In this document: positions 23,066-32,762 of the stretch, piece after piece
How the letters are laid out: every line of letters begins with the position of its first letter
How positions within the stretch are numbered: position 1 is the stretch's first letter
Assembly (NCBI GenBank): GCA_944390045.1
Contig: CALXOO010000007.1
Span: 1-64,000, forward strand
Source: an uncultured Spirochaetales bacterium
GTDB taxonomy: Bacteria; Spirochaetota; Spirochaetia; Sphaerochaetales; Sphaerochaetaceae
DNA length: 64,000 bases
Direction of reading: 5' to 3'
The notes under the pieces: generated by a model
Database searches by the model: none
Told to the model about the DNA's origin: nothing
Seen by the model: only the letters and a program-made list of their open reading frames with translations
Program-made: the position numbers and the translations under genes

Positions 23066-23280
23066 AAAAAAGGGGAACATTCTGAAAACACGTCCGCCTT
23101 TATCCTGCAGCACGCAAGAAAAGTAAAGGTGGTAAAGCATGAAAAAACTACTTGTCATTTTATCAGCAATGCTGATGATCGTTGCTGTCTCATGCAGCAA
23201 TGACACCCTGGTCGCACCCTCTGCGGGCCTTGATGGAACAGACATCACCATCACAGTTCCCACAGTGGATGAGGACAGCG
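23066..23280 (+). repeat. direct repeat, copy 1 (leader and start of lipoprotein gene)
   Basis: The leader and first third of the coding region of the gene at 23139 are nearly the same as 26831-27045, with an offset of 3765 bases. In the leader only occasional single-base differences are seen; similarity fades past about 23280. It marks recent duplication or conversion. Confidence 0.8.
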
Positions 23281-23966
23281 CGCTTCCTGATGAATACAGC
23301 GAAATTGTCGGAGTTATAATGCGGGAAATAGGATCTTCTCTGACTCCATCAGTGAGTGACGAAAAGACATTTGAAAGCGGATATGACTACCAGGGCAATA
23401 AAATCTACTCATATGAGGATGGTGTCTATACAATCGGCGTGGACTGTGAGGTTCTGAAGACCGGAGATGAAGTCGAATATGTAGAAGGATCATCGTCGTA
23501 TATAACAGTCAACGGCACAGAGTATCTCAGCACATCTGACCAGGGCGCTGCTTATATCAGTGCTTACGATACCATCATGCACGATCTGCTCAAGACATCT
23601 GTGACTTCAACACAGAATTCGTCTGTCTACAGAAGAGTAAAGTTGAATGGCCTTCCTGTTCTTGATGATGAAGGCAAGAAGACTTTCGGCGAAGATGGAA
23701 TAACTCCTGTTGAGGAGGATGTCAGGCTAACAGTCAGATGTCTGGGCAGCTCTGTAGAGACCACAACTTCGTTCAAGAACACATATAAGACCGAAAAAAT
23801 CAGTAAGACTGTATATGAGCTTGATAAGGCGGTCAGCGGCATCACTTCCGTGACAATTTACACGTCAACAACTGAATCCAGCATCCTGACAGGCGGAGAC
23901 AATAGTTTCACTTCCTCTGTCATTGAGATTACGAGAAATGGTGAGACCAGCGCATACGTCTATTGA
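23139..23966 (+). CDS. lipoprotein, array member 1 (subfamily 1)
   Basis: 275 residues. Signal peptide KKLLVILSAMLMIVAVSC with lipidated Cys at residue 19, followed by SNDT and a flexible linker. The core shared by all array members reads roughly G-x-x-x-Y-x-x-x-D-G-V-Y-x-I-G-V, then G-D-E-V, then a short I-T-V-N-G-x-E-Y strand. The C-terminal end is VIEITRNGETSAYVY. No known domain is recognised. The start has AAAGGTGG upstream. It forms a pair with the next gene, 14 bases away. Confidence 0.8.
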   Translation: MKKLLVILSAMLMIVAVSCSNDTLVAPSAGLDGTDITITVPTVDEDSALPDEYSEIVGVIMREIGSSLTPSVSDEKTFESGYDYQGNKIYSYEDGVYTIGVDCEVLKTGDEVEYVEGSSSYITVNGTEYLSTSDQGAAYISAYDTIMHDLLKTSVTSTQNSSVYRRVKLNGLPVLDDEGKKTFGEDGITPVEEDVRLTVRCLGSSVETTTSFKNTYKTEKISKTVYELDKAVSGITSVTIYTSTTESSILTGGDNSFTSSVIEITRNGETSAYVY

Positions 23967-23980
23967 TCAGGGAGGAGAAA

Positions 23981-24775
23981 ATGAAAAAAGCGATTACTAT
24001 ACTTGCACTCATACTGATGATCTTTGCTGTGTCATGTTCCAATGATACGCCGGCACCTGCAAATGAAGTTCTAGACAATGAGGATATTGCAGTTGCCAGG
24101 CCTGCTGTTCCTGATCAGGGCTTGAACCTAGAAGAACTGATGAATTTCACACCTGTCCTGACGGGAATGACGGATAGCAATATTGTTGAGAGAGCCAATT
24201 CTGAGTGGACCAATTATTACAGTGGCCAGGAGAAAGTTCTGACTTTATCTGATGGAGAGATGTACATACTTTCGGATGGCGATGTTTTCCGCCGTGGCGA
24301 CAAGGTCAGCGCTGTTACCAGCTCCTCTATTAAAGTCAATGACATTGTTTACAGCTCAAGCACGAGTACTGGAAGAGCGTATCTTGATGAGTGGATCGAT
24401 ATTTATGGATCAGTAACAAATTCTATAACTTCTTCCACTGTAGAAAAAGTCTTTGAGTTCACGGATGAAACAGGTGCGGAGCCTGTTGATTATACTGTCA
24501 CCGCAACAGGAACACAGCGATATGATGTGGATGGCAACCAGCCCACATCCAGCAGACAGCTTGATGTCAGGTTCTCTCCTGCGATCGGCGAAGTATCGAG
24601 TGTGACAATCAATATCTATACATACTGGGAGACTCCTGAAGCCGCTGAAGCAGATCCTGATCCCACCCCCGTAGAAAAGACGAATTACGTGATTACTTAT
24701 GGCGGCGCATCATATGATGCGGCGGATGGCGGCAGTGTCATCAGCGGAATCGTTGATTCTGTTTTCCTTGTATAA
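23981..24775 (+). CDS. lipoprotein, array member 2 (subfamily 2)
   Basis: 264 residues from the ATG at 23981, which has GGGAGGAG 6 bases upstream. Lipobox FAVSC with the lipidated Cys at residue 19; the mature protein starts SNDTPAPANE. It shares with subfamily 1 the core DGEMYILSDGDVFRRGDKV and IKVNDIVYSS but has its own N-terminal linker (PAVPDQG) and ends VISGIVDSVFLV. It is transcribed with member 1. Function unknown; probably a surface lipoprotein. Confidence 0.8.
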   Translation: MKKAITILALILMIFAVSCSNDTPAPANEVLDNEDIAVARPAVPDQGLNLEELMNFTPVLTGMTDSNIVERANSEWTNYYSGQEKVLTLSDGEMYILSDGDVFRRGDKVSAVTSSSIKVNDIVYSSSTSTGRAYLDEWIDIYGSVTNSITSSTVEKVFEFTDETGAEPVDYTVTATGTQRYDVDGNQPTSSRQLDVRFSPAIGEVSSVTINIYTYWETPEAAEADPDPTPVEKTNYVITYGGASYDAADGGSVISGIVDSVFLV

Positions 24776-24802
24776 CGGCTGATCTGCCGTCTCTGCATTG
24801 TC

Positions 24803-24854
24803 TGTTCCCTGATTTCTCCTGCAAGTGTTGTACTGCAGGGAGATGCAGGGAACA
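24803..24854 (+). terminator. long imperfect hairpin between lipoprotein pairs
   Basis: TGTTCCCTG (24803-24811) pairs with CAGGGAACA (24846-24854) and the inner TCTCCTGCA pairs with TGCAGGGAGA with one bulge. There is no T run afterwards, so it may be an mRNA-stability element or partial terminator. Confidence 0.4.
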
Positions 24855-24929
24855 GCAGGGCAGGTGCTGCTCAAGCCTGGCTGAAAACGGTCATCCGCTT
24901 TCCGGTCAGCAATAAGAAAAATGAGGTGA

Positions 24930-25730
24930 ATGATGAAAAGACTACTTGTGATTCTTTCTGCGCTGTTATTGATCATTGCTGTCTCATGCAGCAATGATAC
25001 CCCGGCAGCGCCTTCTGCGGGACTCGATGGAGCAGATATCTCCATCACGATTCCTTCAGTGGATGAGGATAATGTCGTACCGGATGAGTATGCTGCGGTT
25101 TATAGAAACCTGATAACAGCTGTGGGAGTCTCTGCTGATGTTGGATCATACAGCAGCTACACGAATGGTTATGATGCCGAAGGCAACAGGATCTACTCTG
25201 AGGAGAATGATGTCTATACGGTCGGCATCGCCGGTGATGTGCTCAAGGTCGGTGATGAGGTTGAGTACGAAGGAGGCGAATATATAACAGTCAATGGCCG
25301 GCAGTATAAGCGAGAATCCAAGACTGGCGCTGACTATATCAATGATTTCAATGACATGATGAACAACAGGCTCGTTGATCTCGTTTCTTCAAGAAAGGCT
25401 GATTCCACATACCGCAGGCTTGGGTTTGATATTCCTGTGCTTGATGACGAGGGGAAGATGACTGCTGATACGGAAAAAATCACGGTCACAGTCGATTGTT
25501 CTTCTCTCTGGTCTCTGTCCACCACAACATATGCCAACGGAGAAATTAAGAGAGTCGATACCATAAAGACAACTTATGATCTGAGCAAAGCAGCAAACGG
25601 GATTACTTCCATGACAATGTATGAATACAAGGTGTCACAGAGTGAGGATGGAAGCAATCCTATGGTGTCAACATATGTTCTGGAAGTCACACATGACGGT
25701 GAGACCAGTGCCTATGCGTACTACTACTGA
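24930..25730 (+). CDS. lipoprotein, array member 3 (subfamily 1)
   Basis: 266 residues; start at 24930 or the next codon 24933, behind GAGGTG. Lipobox IAVSC followed by SNDTPAAPSAGLDG, nearly the same as member 1 over the first 50 residues, then diverging. Core: EENDVYTVGIAGDVLKVGDEV and ITVNGRQYK; C-terminal LEVTHDGETSAYAYYY. It forms a second pair with the gene starting 18 bases downstream. Confidence 0.8.
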   Translation: MMKRLLVILSALLLIIAVSCSNDTPAAPSAGLDGADISITIPSVDEDNVVPDEYAAVYRNLITAVGVSADVGSYSSYTNGYDAEGNRIYSEENDVYTVGIAGDVLKVGDEVEYEGGEYITVNGRQYKRESKTGADYINDFNDMMNNRLVDLVSSRKADSTYRRLGFDIPVLDDEGKMTADTEKITVTVDCSSLWSLSTTTYANGEIKRVDTIKTTYDLSKAANGITSMTMYEYKVSQSEDGSNPMVSTYVLEVTHDGETSAYAYYY

Positions 25731-25748
25731 TGAAGGGGGAAAGAGAAC

Positions 25749-26567
25749 ATGAAGAAAGCGATTACTATACTTGCACTCATTCTGATGATCTTTGCCGTAT
25801 CCTGTTCCAATGATACGCCGGCACCTGCCAACGAGATTCCCGAGAAGACTGACCTCGTTGTCTCAAATCCAGCTGTTCCTGAGGAAGCAGTCACTTCTGA
25901 TATCCTGCAGCAATTCTCTGCTGTCATCAGTACAATCACCACAGGAGAAGCCACTAAGATCACAGAAGATTCATGGCAGAATGAATATGATGGTGACGGA
26001 GCAAAGGTCTATACAATTATCGATGGAGAGTATTTTGTAATCAATGATGGCAGATATCTCCATGCCGGTGATTCAGTGCGTGTTGATCAGGGAGCCCTGA
26101 TTGTGAATGGCGTCACGTATACAGCAGACACGACAGCCGGCAAGCAGTATATTGAGGATCTGATTGACCTGAATGGTTCTGTCGTGCGTACTGTTGCGTC
26201 AGCGGAAGTTGAGAAGGTCTTTGTCCTCACCGAACCGTCTTCTGTCGAGGGTGAGCCTGCTGCCGAGTATGTCATTACTGTCAAGGGCACTGCCACATCA
26301 GCAACTGATGATACAGAAGAGAATGGCGATATTTCTAATCTTGAGGCATATCAGATAGATCTGACTATTGCCCCTGCCTACAATGAAATCACAACTGCCA
26401 GAGTAAATGTCTATGATGTGATTGAGACGGACGAGGCGACAGATCTGAATCCGGATCCTAAGCCGTATAAGGACACGAAATATGTTCTCACTGTCGGAGA
26501 TACCTCCTACAATGCTGCACCAGGTTCTAGTCAGATTGACGCTGTTATTGGGGCCATTTTCAACTAA
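25749..26567 (+). CDS. lipoprotein, array member 4 (subfamily 2)
   Basis: 272 residues. The first 30 residues (KKAITILALILMIFAVSC, then SNDTPAPANE) are the same as member 2; the rest is a divergent paralogue with core DGEYFVINDGRYLHAGDSV and the end IDAVIGAIFN. AAGGGGGAAAGAG precedes the ATG. Function unknown. Confidence 0.8.
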   Translation: MKKAITILALILMIFAVSCSNDTPAPANEIPEKTDLVVSNPAVPEEAVTSDILQQFSAVISTITTGEATKITEDSWQNEYDGDGAKVYTIIDGEYFVINDGRYLHAGDSVRVDQGALIVNGVTYTADTTAGKQYIEDLIDLNGSVVRTVASAEVEKVFVLTEPSSVEGEPAAEYVITVKGTATSATDDTEENGDISNLEAYQIDLTIAPAYNEITTARVNVYDVIETDEATDLNPDPKPYKDTKYVLTVGDTSYNAAPGSSQIDAVIGAIFN

Positions 26568-26622
26568 CAGACCAGAAGCCGGAGATATGATTATCCCTCC
26601 GACTCTGTAGATATGTTTCCCT

Positions 26623-26660
26623 GCCCCGGGGGTGGTCTTCCGCCTCCGGGGCTCTCTTTT
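26623..26660 (+). terminator. terminator after array member 4
   Basis: Thirteen-base-pair stem (26623-26635 with 26640-26652, two G-T pairs), TCTT loop, then TCTCTTTT. Bases 26661-26789 contain no gene I can support. Confidence 0.8.
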
Positions 26661-26830
26661 ATGAATCAGCCAATGTGAGAATACCAGATGGATAATCAAG
26701 CTGAAGTTTGCCAGGGGGCAGCCGCATGCTTAAACAGGGCATCCGGTGCTGGCAGAAATCCATATGAACAATCTGGAATCACGCAAAAGTTGACAGCAGA
26801 AAAACAGGTTTACCTTTTTGTTGTGCTGAG

Positions 26831-27045
26831 AAAAAAGGGGAACATTCTGAAAACACGTCTGCCTTTATCCTGCAGCACGCAAGAAAAGTAAAGGTGGTAA
26901 AGCATGAAAAAACTACTTGTCATTTTATCAGCAATGCTGATGATTGTTGCTGTCTCATGCAGCAACGACACCCCGGCCGCACCCTCTGAGGACTTTGATA
27001 GAACAGATATCACCATCACGGTCTCCACAGTGGATGAGGACAACG
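26831..27045 (+). repeat. direct repeat, copy 2
   Basis: Second copy of the leader and gene start described at 23066-23280. The leader differs by scattered single bases only. Confidence 0.8.
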
Positions 27046-27704
27046 TTGCCCCCAAGGGATATGGGCTTATTCTGGAAAACCTGACCAATATTTCTTCTGC
27101 TCCTTCAGAATCTTCAAATTCAGGTTTCACAAATGCCTATGACGCAGAGGGTGAGAAGGTCTACGTCATGAAAGATGGCGTATATACAATCGGGGTCAAC
27201 GGCGATGTGCTCAAGATCGGCGATAAGGTCGAGTCATCATCCGGTCCCGATATAATTATTAATGGAGATGAGTATGACACTTCCACAGAGACTGGAAAGG
27301 CTTATCAGGAGGATTGGGATAGAATCCAGGAAACTGCAGTCAGGGAAGTCGGCTCAAATGAGAAAAGTCGCATATACAGAGAGTTCCCATTGACTGTTCC
27401 GGTGCTTGATGACAACGGACTGCCTACTGCTGACGAGACAGGCGCTCCCGTTACTGAGGTTGTGACTTGCACGATCGACATTTCTCTAAGGACCAGTACA
27501 ACCAAAGAGTACAATGCAGATGGATATAAGAAGACAACAGTGAAAGAGAGCACATATGATCTCAGCCAGGCTCTCAGCGGAGTCACTTCATTGACTCTGT
27601 ACACAACCGAGGTTGAGCTTTCCTCCTCAGCCGGCAGTTCTGCTACTGCTGTTCTTGAGGTCACACGTGACGGTGAGACCAGCACCTATGCGTACAACAG
27701 CTGA
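26904..27704 (+). CDS. lipoprotein, array member 5 (subfamily 1)
   Basis: 266 residues. Same signal peptide and lipobox as member 1 (VAVSC), then SNDTPAAPSEDFD. Core DGVYTIGVNGDVLKIGDKV and IIINGDEY; end LEVTRDGETSTYAYNS. Same AAAGGTGG ribosome site as member 1. Its expected subfamily-2 partner is missing downstream except for a 3' remnant at about 27795-27880. Confidence 0.8.
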   Translation: MKKLLVILSAMLMIVAVSCSNDTPAAPSEDFDRTDITITVSTVDEDNVAPKGYGLILENLTNISSAPSESSNSGFTNAYDAEGEKVYVMKDGVYTIGVNGDVLKIGDKVESSSGPDIIINGDEYDTSTETGKAYQEDWDRIQETAVREVGSNEKSRIYREFPLTVPVLDDNGLPTADETGAPVTEVVTCTIDISLRTSTTKEYNADGYKKTTVKESTYDLSQALSGVTSLTLYTTEVELSSSAGSSATAVLEVTRDGETSTYAYNS

Positions 27705-28514: not shown

Positions 28515-29294
28515 TCACTCTGCCTCTCTTCCGTAGACCTCTATCTGGATGAGGGCGGGGAAGGGGGAGGGATCATCTGCCTTGATCAGCCTGTCAAGCT
28601 CGAGCCAGGTGATGGTCTTCTCAGGGAAGGTTATCTCCTGCGGTCCGTCTTTCTTCTCAAGCGGCATCACCAGCTCGCTTCCGTCTGAGAAGGTGAAGGT
28701 CCCTTCCGTCCACCAGGCGTCATGCGGGAAATCAGCACGGGTGTACATGATGATCCTGTCTATTGTGACCGCGCGGCCGAAATCCAGCGTGAGCTTCGCC
28801 TCAGGATCCCTGTTGATGCCCCAGCTTGCCCAGGGCCACAGTCCGTGCCAGTTGCTTGCCACAATGCCGTCTATCGCATTGCGGGAAGCAAACACGGATT
28901 CTCCGCGTGTCTCGATATTCGCCCTGGAATGCGGGAAGATGGAATCGTCCTCATGACAGTCGTAGGGGTTGAGCGAGAGGTTGCGGTAGCAGTTGTACTC
29001 CCACTCATAGGCCTTCCTTGCCCAAAGGAAGTGCAGTGCGCCCTTGAAAACAGACTCCTGGTAGCAGTCGTGCTTCTGCCCGAATGGGATATTCATCACA
29101 AAGGGCTGGCCGTTCGAATAGACAGTCGCGCGTCCAAGGACAGCGTCGAACTGCAGTGTGACAAAACCTGCCTGCTCGGGAGTGAAGCGGATCTGGTCTC
29201 CCTCCTGGTATTCTTCCTTGAAGACCAGATAGGTCTCCGTTGCCTGTTCTGCCGAGGCCACTGCCCCGCCGTTTCTCAAGATTTCAATCTTCAT
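28515..29294 (-). CDS. carbohydrate-binding (discoidin/galactose-binding-like) protein
   Basis: 259 residues without a signal peptide. The C-terminal half looks like an F5/8 type C-type jelly roll: KLTLDFGRAVTIDRIIMYTR, then DGSELVMPLEKK and the closing IQIEVYG strand. The middle (residues 85-140) holds WARKAYEWEYNCYRNLSLNPYDCHED, a pattern I cannot assign. Genes like this accompany polysaccharide lyase loci. It would be the last gene of the kinase-regulator-GH88-lyase operon, but the IscB element lies between it and the lyase. Its ATG has no Shine-Dalgarno sequence now (CCCCTCC lies upstream), suggesting reduced expression. Confidence 0.6.
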   Translation of the reverse strand: MKIEILRNGGAVASAEQATETYLVFKEEYQEGDQIRFTPEQAGFVTLQFDAVLGRATVYSNGQPFVMNIPFGQKHDCYQESVFKGALHFLWARKAYEWEYNCYRNLSLNPYDCHEDDSIFPHSRANIETRGESVFASRNAIDGIVASNWHGLWPWASWGINRDPEAKLTLDFGRAVTIDRIIMYTRADFPHDAWWTEGTFTFSDGSELVMPLEKKDGPQEITFPEKTITWLELDRLIKADDPSPFPALIQIEVYGREAE

Positions 29295-29305
29295 AAAATT
29301 TTCAT

Positions 29306-29346
29306 GGAGGGGAAACCATCAGGCTCGTCCTGATGGAGAAACCTCC
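29306..29346 (-). repeat. 3' end hairpin of the IscB element
   Basis: Inner eight-base-pair stem CCATCAGG/CCTGATGG (29316-29323, 29329-29336) with a 5-base loop, and outer GGAGG/CCTCC (29306-29310, 29342-29346). It overlaps the last codons of iscB. IS200/IS605-type elements carry such imperfect hairpins near their ends as transposase recognition sites; a terminator role is also possible. Confidence 0.55.
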
Positions 29347-30578
29347 ATAACCTCCTTGTAGATAAGATTCGTATTCGCACGCTCGACGAGCGTCAAGTGC
29401 CTGTAGTGTATTCCTGCATGGACCCTTGTCCCGTCCAGGCGACGGATGTCGAAGTAGCCCGAGCTCCTCCTGCCATGTATGTAGCACAGCTGCCCTGCGT
29501 ACATGACCTTGTCGTTCAGGCCAAACCCTGCGACCTTCCTCGCCGCCTGGTTCGCCTTCCTCACGCCCTTCTTCAGCATAGTGTCCTTGTGGATCTTCCT
29601 GTTGTGACTCCTTCGCGTGACGACATGCCAGAGGACTCCGTCGCTCATGGCTGTGACGTTTCCGCTTATGACCCTCGCATCGATGAAGTGCCTCTTCTCG
29701 AGGCCATGGCTCTTCCTCCCGTGGTTCGTGACGTAGCCGTAGGTCTCTTTCACCGGGATGTCGGGATGTGTCTTCCTCACCCTGTCCAGAAGGATCCATC
29801 TCATCGTTGACATCTCCGTCGCCGCCTTGAAGCCAGGATCCTCCGACAATGTGCCCCTGTCCTTCTTCCCCTCATGCCAGGCCTTGTGGCACTCGTGGCA
29901 CAGCGTGACGAGGTTGTCAGGGCTGTTGGACCCACCATCCTTCCTCTGCCTGATGTGGTGGACCTCAAGATGGTCCCTCGAGCCGCAGCTCCTGCATCTG
30001 AAGCCGTCTCTGGCCTTCACATAGGCCTTGACGTTCTCGTAGCCCAGCTGCTCCCCCTGCTGGTACTCTTCCCCTTCGATTCCAGGATCCCTGATCTTCT
30101 GGATGTCGAAGGATGCACTCTCGATGACGATCCTCGAGGCGGGCAGGATGGAGCACAGCTTGTCGATGACGTTCTCGTGGGTCCTGACCTTCGTCTCCAT
30201 CGTAGGAGTGAGCCAGCCCTTGGGTCGTTTCCTGTTGTCGAGGCGGGCCTCTCGGTAACGTGTCTTGCGGTTCCGCCTTGCCCTCCGCTTTGACCGCCTC
30301 TCCTCCATGCTCTGCGGAACGTCGTTCCTGACCTCAACCTCGGCCTCGAGGAGCACCCTGCCTTCCGTCGTCACGCTGACTCCAATCAACGAGGAGCCGG
30401 CATCGACTCCAAGCGTGACGGCTTCCGTGTTGACTTCTCCCTCCACGAGGAAGGTGAGACGTATGATGAAGGGAGTCCTCCTCACCACCTTCGCCTTCCC
30501 ACCCTCGACCAGATGCCTCGCCTTGGCCTCGGTGCATGGCATGAGGGGAGAGCCGTCATTGTTGAGTACGTATACCAT
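29319..30578 (-). CDS. iscB: IscB RNA-guided nuclease
   Basis: 419 residues. N-terminal PLMP domain (residues 1-43, with SPLMPCTEAKA); RuvC-I LGVDAGSSLIG with Asp59; arginine-rich bridge helix about 93-118; RuvC-II IVIESASFD with Glu153; HNH insert about 185-240 with zinc-type Cys pairs (C195/C198, C227/C230) and catalytic HH at 207-208, Asn222 and His231; RuvC-III HFIDA with His297 and Asp300; then a C-terminal target-motif-interacting region. All catalytic residues are present, so the nuclease should be active. IscB is the ancestor-like relative of Cas9, guided by an omega-RNA encoded directly upstream, which fits the 380-base structured region before this gene. Confidence 0.95.
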   Translation of the reverse strand: MVYVLNNDGSPLMPCTEAKARHLVEGGKAKVVRRTPFIIRLTFLVEGEVNTEAVTLGVDAGSSLIGVSVTTEGRVLLEAEVEVRNDVPQSMEERRSKRRARRNRKTRYREARLDNRKRPKGWLTPTMETKVRTHENVIDKLCSILPASRIVIESASFDIQKIRDPGIEGEEYQQGEQLGYENVKAYVKARDGFRCRSCGSRDHLEVHHIRQRKDGGSNSPDNLVTLCHECHKAWHEGKKDRGTLSEDPGFKAATEMSTMRWILLDRVRKTHPDIPVKETYGYVTNHGRKSHGLEKRHFIDARVISGNVTAMSDGVLWHVVTRRSHNRKIHKDTMLKKGVRKANQAARKVAGFGLNDKVMYAGQLCYIHGRRSSGYFDIRRLDGTRVHAGIHYRHLTLVERANTNLIYKEVMEVSPSGRA

Positions 30579-30977
30579 GTCGTCATGCCTCCTTGCCGGC
30601 GAGTCTCAGGGGGATGTTCCAATCCTCTGCTCCCGACGCCCCTGATGCGCGTCTGGAGGAGGATGCGGAAACGTCGCCTTCTTGGCCGGCTTTCCGCTGC
30701 CGTCACGGGGCCTTGCTCCCTGTCGCCCTTCGCCCATGTTGGAGGGGGTTTGTCGTGCATGGCGCCGTCCCTACCTGACAGGACTCTTGACCATGCACCG
30801 CAGAAGCAGTGGACTAGAGCTACATCCACTGGTGCCTATATATTCCCGACCAACGTAGTTCAGAGGCTTGAGCCTCATCACTGGGGCTAGTCAACGTCAG
30901 GCATCCGGAGTCTCCTCCTCATGCCTGCAGCCTCGTGCTGCAGGTCGTTGACCAGTCTCTCCTTAATCCTTGAATCT
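30579..30977 (-). ncRNA. omega-RNA (HEARO-type) of IscB with candidate guide at its 5' end
   Basis: The interval between iscB and the lyase stop has no gene but strong minus-strand folding. Stems: 30946-30955 with 30887-30896 (10 pairs) enclosing two hairpins (about 30923-30943 and 30898-30922); GAGGC/GCCTC at 30863-30876; CAGTGGA/TCCACTG at 30807-30813 and 30825-30831; GTGCATG/CATGCAC at 30755-30761 and 30792-30798 enclosing GTCC/GGAC. IscB omega-RNAs lie immediately upstream of iscB and carry the guide at the 5' end, copied from the DNA flanking the element. Here that is the end of the lyase gene (about 30957-30977). Exact transcript ends are not visible. Confidence 0.75.
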
Positions 30978-32762
30978 TATCGTCCAACAGGCACTGCCAG
31001 TGAGTGTCACGAGCGTCCTGTAGAGCTTGTCCGGCCAGGCCTTTCTGAGCCGGGCATCGGTTATCTCGATGACTTCAACCTCTGCTCTGGCGAAGCCGCA
31101 GCTGAAGTCTATCCCGAATGACTTCCAGTTTACAGTCCCGTCTCCCGGAACAGGTTCCTCTTGGCTTATCAGGGAAAGCACAGGGGTGAGCGTGCTCTCG
31201 ATATCTTCCGTGACTGTTATGGTCTTCGCCTCTCTGTCGAAGACCGCTGTCCGCACGTATCCAGTCAGCCTCTCGTGAGCAGGGTAGGCGCCTCGCAGGT
31301 CAAAGGATGCCCCGTTCTCATCAAGACTCAGGACTCTTGCCTTATACTGGCTCCCGTCCTTCTGCTGCACGGGCGGGAAGTTGACCAGATTGTGGTAGGA
31401 GCTCTGCATGGGCCTGAGCGTATAGCGGTCCTTCGAGAAGGTCGTCTTCGTGTAGGTCTCGACTCCGATGTCCACAAGCAGCGGTCTTGTTCCCTTGTAC
31501 AGGATGATGGAGCCCACATCATTGTGATTGTGGCTCTCTGCGTTGTTGCCTCCCTTGATGGAGAAGGTGATATCTTTCTCCCGGTATATGGCCAGCTCCG
31601 TCTTGCTGAAGTACTTGAATCCGGCGCGCTGTGGCTGGATGTTCCTTCCGGCTTCCTCCATCACCTCGCGGTAGTTCGCCAGCGCAAGCAGCTTGTAGAA
31701 GAGGTTGTATGAGTTGTCATCCTCCTGCCAGCCGTACTTCATCACATCAAGCGCAGCATGATGGGCCATCGCCTCGTTGCCTGTGGCCTTTGCGAAGAGG
31801 TATTCCCGTACTGTCAGCGTGCCGGCCTTCGGCGAGCAGTCAGCATAGTTGAGGTAGAGATCCTCCGCTATGAACACATCCTCGATATAGCCTGCCATAC
31901 CTCTGACCTTGGCGCTGCCGAAGAGCGGAGAGAAGTCACGGCCGGAAGCTTTCTCAAGCAGGGTGAGCGCACCGAAGAGGGCCAGTGCGGCGGCATGGTA
32001 GTAACTCGCACCCTCGTCACAGCCTCCGTCCTCGCTGTAGCTTTCCATGAAGGAATCCAGCGTGGTGGTGGCCTGCTTGACTATCTTCATGCGGGTCTTC
32101 TCGTCCAGTTTCCTGTTTGACAGAGTCGCGATGAGCACGTTCTGAGTGCACCAGGGAGACCAGTTGTTGAGTGGTCCGCTGGCACCCATCCACCAGAAAT
32201 GATCTGTGATGTAGGGTCTGGCGATCCTCTCCTCAAGCGCGTGCCAGATGTCTTCTTCAAGCACTGGATTGAGCCTTCCGGACAGACAGCAGGCCGTAAG
32301 GGCCATGATCTCTCCTGTCTCGCAGGCGAAGAGATCCAGAATGGGACGTCCTGTCAGCGGAGTGTCCAGCTGCTCTGTGTCCCGCACATATGAGTTGTGC
32401 GGCGGAATGACCCAGGCCGGTTCACTGAGGATGGCCCAGATTCCTTCCTCGATCACCGGCATGAAGTCCTCGTCCGGGCGGGCGCACTGGGCGATGACCA
32501 GGCAGCTGAGCTTCCGCCTCTTGGCGAAGTACACATCCTCGTAGCGCATTCTGTTGCCGGTTTTCTTGAAGTCCCTGAAGAGCGAAAGCGGGATATAGTC
32601 GTCCTTCGTGAACGAAATGTCCCGTGCCTTTTTCACAATGTCATCAACCAGCGGGGCGGGGAGTGAATCCCACAGCCCCCTGCTGGAGATGCTGTACTGT
32701 GCGAAATCAAGTACTGAGGTCCTGTCCAGACCGGTCAGCACATTCTCAAGCAGCCTTTCCAT
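30963..32762 (-). CDS. heparinase II/III-family polysaccharide lyase 1
   Basis: 599 residues, no signal peptide, so probably cytoplasmic, acting on imported oligosaccharides. The N-terminal 330 residues are rich in helices (alpha/alpha toroid). The C-terminal part has the family motif NAESHNHNDVGSIILY followed by PLLVDIGVETYT and SSYHNLVNFP, the catalytic His/Tyr region of heparinase II/III lyases. It would cleave uronic-acid-containing chains by beta-elimination, giving unsaturated products for the GH88 enzyme encoded just upstream. Three bases separate it from the GH88 stop. AAGGAG follows its own stop codon. Confidence 0.88.
   Translation of the reverse strand: MERLLENVLTGLDRTSVLDFAQYSISSRGLWDSLPAPLVDDIVKKARDISFTKDDYIPLSLFRDFKKTGNRMRYEDVYFAKRRKLSCLVIAQCARPDEDFMPVIEEGIWAILSEPAWVIPPHNSYVRDTEQLDTPLTGRPILDLFACETGEIMALTACCLSGRLNPVLEEDIWHALEERIARPYITDHFWWMGASGPLNNWSPWCTQNVLIATLSNRKLDEKTRMKIVKQATTTLDSFMESYSEDGGCDEGASYYHAAALALFGALTLLEKASGRDFSPLFGSAKVRGMAGYIEDVFIAEDLYLNYADCSPKAGTLTVREYLFAKATGNEAMAHHAALDVMKYGWQEDDNSYNLFYKLLALANYREVMEEAGRNIQPQRAGFKYFSKTELAIYREKDITFSIKGGNNAESHNHNDVGSIILYKGTRPLLVDIGVETYTKTTFSKDRYTLRPMQSSYHNLVNFPPVQQKDGSQYKARVLSLDENGASFDLRGAYPAHERLTGYVRTAVFDREAKTITVTEDIESTLTPVLSLISQEEPVPGDGTVNWKSFGIDFSCGFARAEVEVIEITDARLRKAWPDKLYRTLVTLTGSACWTIRFKD

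Follow-up and report, generated by a model that had tools for sequence, protein, structure and literature searches.

An IscB/omega-RNA element inserted at a host start codon in a gut Spirochaetales genome, and the start codon as its putative target motif

How does a mobile element with no transposase of its own come to lie inside an operon, and what set the exact base at which it landed? The question is raised by an IscB/omega-RNA element in the first 64,000 nucleotides (nt) of contig CALXOO010000007.1 (the window), from an uncultured gut Spirochaetales bacterium whose genome assembly (GCA_944390045.1) comprises 2.0 Mb in 62 contigs. On the minus strand of the window, a lyase gene, the IscB element, and a discoidin-like gene stand in that order. 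Judged from its sequence, the element is a non-autonomous (TnpA-less) IS200/IS605-type IscB (HEARO/OMEGA) element, and it is inserted in the sense direction, precisely between a host Shine-Dalgarno site and the start codon that this site served. Related elements occupy start codons far more often than chance would allow, apparently because the recognition motif of the enzyme is itself the start codon.

The identity of the element and its borders, as given in Table 1, leave very little room for doubt. The iscB product matches NF040563 (guided_IscB) at 345 bits (cut-off, 175) and contains the Pfam domains RRXRR (PF14239) and HNH (PF01844); the sequence directly upstream matches HEARO (RF02033) over the full length of the model (positions 1 to 211 of 211; 96.5 bits against a cut-off of 83; E = 1.7e-18). 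The RuvC residues D59, E153, H297, and D300 and the HNH pair H207/H208 are all present and align with those of other family members and of solved IscB chains; there are also four cysteines, at positions 195, 198, 227, and 230. From the intact residues and RNA we infer that the nuclease may be functional. At the other end, a two-part hairpin (z = -3.7 against shuffled sequences) overlaps the iscB stop, in a stretch that folds better than 200 of 200 shuffles, and this design is common to related elements. The first-pass annotation, made from the letters of this DNA, had already recognized the IscB/omega-RNA pair, the complete set of RuvC and HNH catalytic residues, and the terminal hairpin, and all three are borne out. 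A sigma-70-like promoter was sought within the element and none was found.

The borders themselves had to be moved. They had been placed at 29306 and 30958, which the alignment of copies in different flanks rules out: the left tip is GTCAAC at 30952 (HEARO position 1), and the right tip is the T at 29295, the last base before ATGAAG. A border at 29306 omits the right-end sequence CCATGAAAATTTT, which belongs to the element, since the same or near versions of it occur in other copies. Empty sites agree with these limits. Orthologues of the lyase (56 to 68% identical to that of the window) and of the discoidin-like protein (79 to 86%) are encoded side by side, without an element, in eight genomes of the same genus, and the pair is also adjacent in one genome of another genus. 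In all eight congeners the discoidin-like orthologue begins at the same ATG, and a short purine-rich or Shine-Dalgarno-like spacer precedes that ATG at the empty site. The view that the element entered between two once-adjacent operon genes thus holds. That the insertion is recent holds at the level of the genus and no finer, as no empty site from the same species was available.

When the element is removed from the window, GGATTAAGGAGAGACTG is followed directly by ATGAAGATTG, and AAGGAG comes to lie 6 nt before the discoidin-like ATG. This orphaned Shine-Dalgarno site (30959 to 30964) is overlapped by the TAA of the lyase gene (30963 to 30965). The first-pass annotation had correctly proposed that joining the flanks restores a displaced ribosome site, although at a distance of about 11 rather than 6 nt; it did not recognize that the element had entered right at the start codon, that most related elements obey the same rule, or that deleted copies of the element exist in the genome. 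Elsewhere, the C49 copy splits a glyoxalase-like frame, and its rejoined flanks read through to a terminal GYYESCILDAEGNQIELTV and stop codon with no duplication.

Insertion at a start codon recurs widely. Related elements were drawn from the genus and family and from genomes of about 85,000 species; left tips were placed by HEARO matches and right tips by conserved ends, which yielded 75 elements mapped at both tips. Of these, 73 have ATGR (R, purine) immediately beyond the right end (ATGA in 58 and ATGG in 15), and the other two have ATAA. This fixed short motif at one end, together with the absence of a target duplication in the C49 flanks, is as found in IS200/IS605 elements. We called an ATG start-like when it opened a frame of at least 60 codons and when, in the rejoined site, a stop in the same frame stood shortly before it. 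By this definition, 49 of the 75 elements have a start-like ATG at their right end, compared with 11.4% of all ATGR sites in the flanks (binomial P = 3e-28) and 24.2% of those outside gene interiors (P = 5e-14); in groups whose end is defined by several copies, the count is 34 of 50 (P = 7e-11). The test is conservative, the starts of an HflC-like (L089) and a XerC-like (L106) gene having failed it. Pfam matches were found for 27 of the 30 downstream proteins checked, 13 of them within the first ten residues; examples are RecR, LigA, RecG, NadD, NtrC, an epimerase, a universal stress protein, and an archaeal NFACT protein, and the rule spans bacteria and archaea. The left flank carries a Shine-Dalgarno site in 31 of the 49 start-codon insertions versus 6 of the 26 others and 16.6% of background ATGR sites. 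We consider the occupancy of start codons very probably real.

The occupied codon is likely also the target-adjacent motif (TAM) of the nuclease. Among 66 proteins, the residues that best separate ATGA from ATGG elements are S373 and D377 of the window IscB, both of which belong to the GRRSSGYFDxR loop in the C-terminal TAM-interacting region: ATGA proteins have mostly S or T and D at these positions, and ATGG proteins have R, D, or C and N, T, S, or K. The switch between A and G is seen within Sutterella, in spirochaete subfamilies C and E, and in lineage RD49. Because the fourth base of the motif tracks a TAM-interacting loop, the start codon appears to be the TAM. The pattern seems to parallel that of DtIsrB, whose Q326 recognizes the fourth base of the TAM and whose Q326R variant accepts G (PMC9581776). 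With up to 3 mismatches allowed, the genome offers no other match to the predicted guide plus ATGA; at the guide's own locus, GTCA stands in place of ATGA, as expected if the occupied allele is protected from its own nuclease.

An insertion between a Shine-Dalgarno site and its start codon raises the matter of how the gene behind it is translated. In 12 elements, spread over several lineages, the reading frame of iscB runs 1 or 4 nt into that of the host gene (TGATG or ATGA), which suggests translational coupling; the distance from iscB stop to host start is 1 to 5 nt in 3 more elements and 20 to 32 nt in most others. In spirochaete family B, L113, and L147, it is the host's own ATGA that completes the iscB stop. 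Elements of this kind precede ligA in genome G005 (85% complete) and lepB in Duodenibacillus. Each was the only copy that a family search recovered from the genome concerned, so both are presumably expressed even now. That coupling is what keeps the host gene on is a tentative suggestion, somewhat less probable than its opposite. A replacement Shine-Dalgarno site in the right end was considered as a general rule and rejected: it is present in just 8 of the 75, including four forms that carry omega-RNA only. In L107 and L126, a short frame starts within the TGATGG at the iscB stop and continues in phase into the host gene, which could give the host protein a short N-terminal extension.

We propose, as probable overall, that this is a start-codon IscB element with ATGR as its TAM and that cutting retains it. 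A Y1 TnpA acting in trans would move the element. Its omega-RNA would take the guide from the left flank, as in known IscB biology, and thus from the gene's own 5' region, with the start codon ATGR serving as TAM; the IscB ribonucleoprotein would then cut any re-formed empty allele, and the element would be copied back. The occupied allele would escape cutting, since the guide is followed there by GTCA and not by ATGR. No coding sequence would be lost when the insertion falls at a start codon, and the host gene would remain translatable, with iscB ending at or just before the host ATG, by a stop-start overlap, a short termination-reinitiation distance, or, in some forms, a right-end Shine-Dalgarno site. 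Whether this extends to IscB elements as a class is, in our judgment, evenly balanced. They would then be start-codon elements whose TAM is ATG plus R and whose guide is the gene's own Shine-Dalgarno region; their right ends would have acquired, in evolution, stop-start overlaps or replacement ribosome sites by which translation of the invaded gene is maintained. Such elements could then move through gene-dense genomes and do little harm, with host promoters providing their transcription.

No transposase was found inside the window element, as the first-pass annotation had stated. The search for other copies and for tnpA that it had called for returned five HEARO copies, several full or internally deleted iscB copies, and, elsewhere in the genome, two intact Y1 TnpA genes plus fragments. 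Copies of family A share about 87 to 96% protein identity, and closely similar copies adjoin unrelated genes. A TnpA gene beside most related iscB genes was rejected as a rule, with few cases found; in L042 (G088:C55), of the same family, iscB is closely followed by a Y1 TnpA frame on the same strand, and this is likely an autonomous relative.

Other copies show how such elements vary. L126 (718 bp), L106 (422 bp), L128, and L127 have internally deleted iscB copies; the deletions in L126 and L106 appear to be joined at short microhomologies (about GGAAGGCGAA and TCCCCTC). Miniature elements of 355 to 420 nt (L089:1516-1870, L091, L097:1501-1860, L099, and L102) consist of omega-RNA and both ends without iscB. 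Several stand at start codons, of an hflC-like gene, rsfS, and an aminotransferase gene, and such omega-RNA-only forms would require both IscB and TnpA in trans. In L096:1539-2822 (minus strand), which precedes a recG-like gene, the HNH motif of IscB is EVHN instead of EVHH, possibly an impaired HNH.

Several points weigh against the start-codon reading. One third of the sites are not start-like, and in the Erysipelotrichaceae lineage RD49 only 1 of 4 is; right ends of single-copy elements were picked by eye at an ATG; and coupling is least obvious in the window's own family, in which the iscB stop lies 22 to 24 nt from the host ATG and the right end has no Shine-Dalgarno site. Selection against insertions within genes certainly shapes the sample and may contribute to the start-codon excess. 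Survivorship could even be the whole of it: elements would insert at any ATGR, which alone would suffice as a target, and insertions within genes would be purged, with no adaptation to start codons; a few insertions do lie inside genes (L127, in a glyoxalase-like gene, L087, and L113) or in other DNA. We take this to be a possible account but not the favored one. Only 24% of non-interior ATGR sites are start-like against 65% observed, and this null, being restricted to non-interior sites, partly allows for such selection. Moreover, an insert between a Shine-Dalgarno site and its ATG should do harm unless translation is kept, and stop-start overlaps recur in several lineages.

Two further explanations concern the window copy alone. 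It could be the ordinary remnant of a chance insertion, by now incapable of moving or cutting, as its lack of a transposase and the internal deletions in several genome copies might suggest. This is unlikely: the copy retains its whole length, its frame is open, its omega-RNA is complete, and its ends are intact; family A copies remain close to one another in protein sequence, and Y1 TnpA genes are present in the genome. It could also have been domesticated, its guide RNA and IscB controlling the lyase/discoidin operon and no longer serving mobility; the element does lie within a catabolic operon, and its guide matches the operon's own sequence. Such a role is very improbable, as the catalytic residues are intact, the orthologous locus is free of the element in eight congeners, closely similar copies stand at unrelated genes, and the guide has no second target with ATGA in the genome. 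A mobile element held at a start codon is thus the reading that we prefer. Just outside the operon, on the plus strand of the window (23139 to 27704), five tandem genes encode short putative lipoproteins of two types in alternation, whose signal peptides (SCSNDT) are nearly identical.

Table 1. Positions in the window of the IscB element, its parts, and the flanking genes
Feature	Positions	Strand	Remarks
Complete IscB/omega-RNA element	29295-30952	-	1,658 bp; ends from copies in different flanks and empty sites
iscB	29319-30578	-	419 aa plus stop; NF040563
Omega-RNA scaffold, HEARO RF02033	30722-30952	-	Directly upstream of iscB
Right-end two-part hairpin, outer 9-bp and inner 8-bp stems	29302-29350	-	Overlaps iscB stop
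Left flank GGATTAAGGAGAGACTG, predicted omega-RNA guide	30953-30969	-	Directly 5' of HEARO position 1
ATGAAG, target and putative TAM motif; start and second codons of host gene	29289-29294	-	ATGR at right ends
Heparinase II/III-like lyase gene	30963-32762	-	PF07940; syntenic in eight congeners
Discoidin-like (F5/8 type C) host gene behind the element	28515-29294	-	PF24135/PF00754

The element is of a known kind; the start-codon insertion rule may be previously unstated, although this is not certain. Literature searches combining IscB or HEARO with start codon or ATGA returned no statement of it, but key earlier papers were outside our reach, and it may have been noted before. The first description of HEARO, by Weinberg et al. 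in 2009, reportedly mentions integration next to ATGA or GTGA. Cas9 probably descends from IscB. If the TAM is the start codon, the choice of motif in IscB elements would be tied to a survival strategy, that of landing at the single kind of position in a gene-dense genome at which no protein is broken and a promoter already lies upstream; TAMs could then be read from the genome alone, with the first three bases given by the start of the host gene beyond the right end and the fourth predicted from the TAM-interacting loop.

Among characterized systems, the window IscB resembles OgeuIscB (PDB 7xht/7utn) in its PLMP motif, split RuvC, HNH, Arg-rich bridge helix, C-terminal TAM-interacting region, and upstream HEARO RNA, but has 419 aa compared with 495 to 496 in the OgeuIscB chains. 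Its natural motif, ATGA(A/G), differs from the OrufIscB TAM NTAAA and from the NWRGNA sites used for OgeuIscB variants (PMC13180657). IsrB proteins such as DtIsrB offer a parallel: their measured TAMs, NTG, NTGA, and NTGG, amount to the start-codon set, although the term "start codon" is absent from the paper that reports them, and a TAM-interacting residue sets the fourth base, as we suggest for these IscBs; unlike IscB, IsrB lacks HNH (PMC9581776). IS200/IS605 TnpB elements with TnpA likewise draw their guide from the flank, use the TnpA target as TAM, and are retained at their site by the nuclease (PMC11870625). The IscB element differs from these in that the motif lies at its 3' end and coincides with host start codons and in that it carries no tnpA inside.
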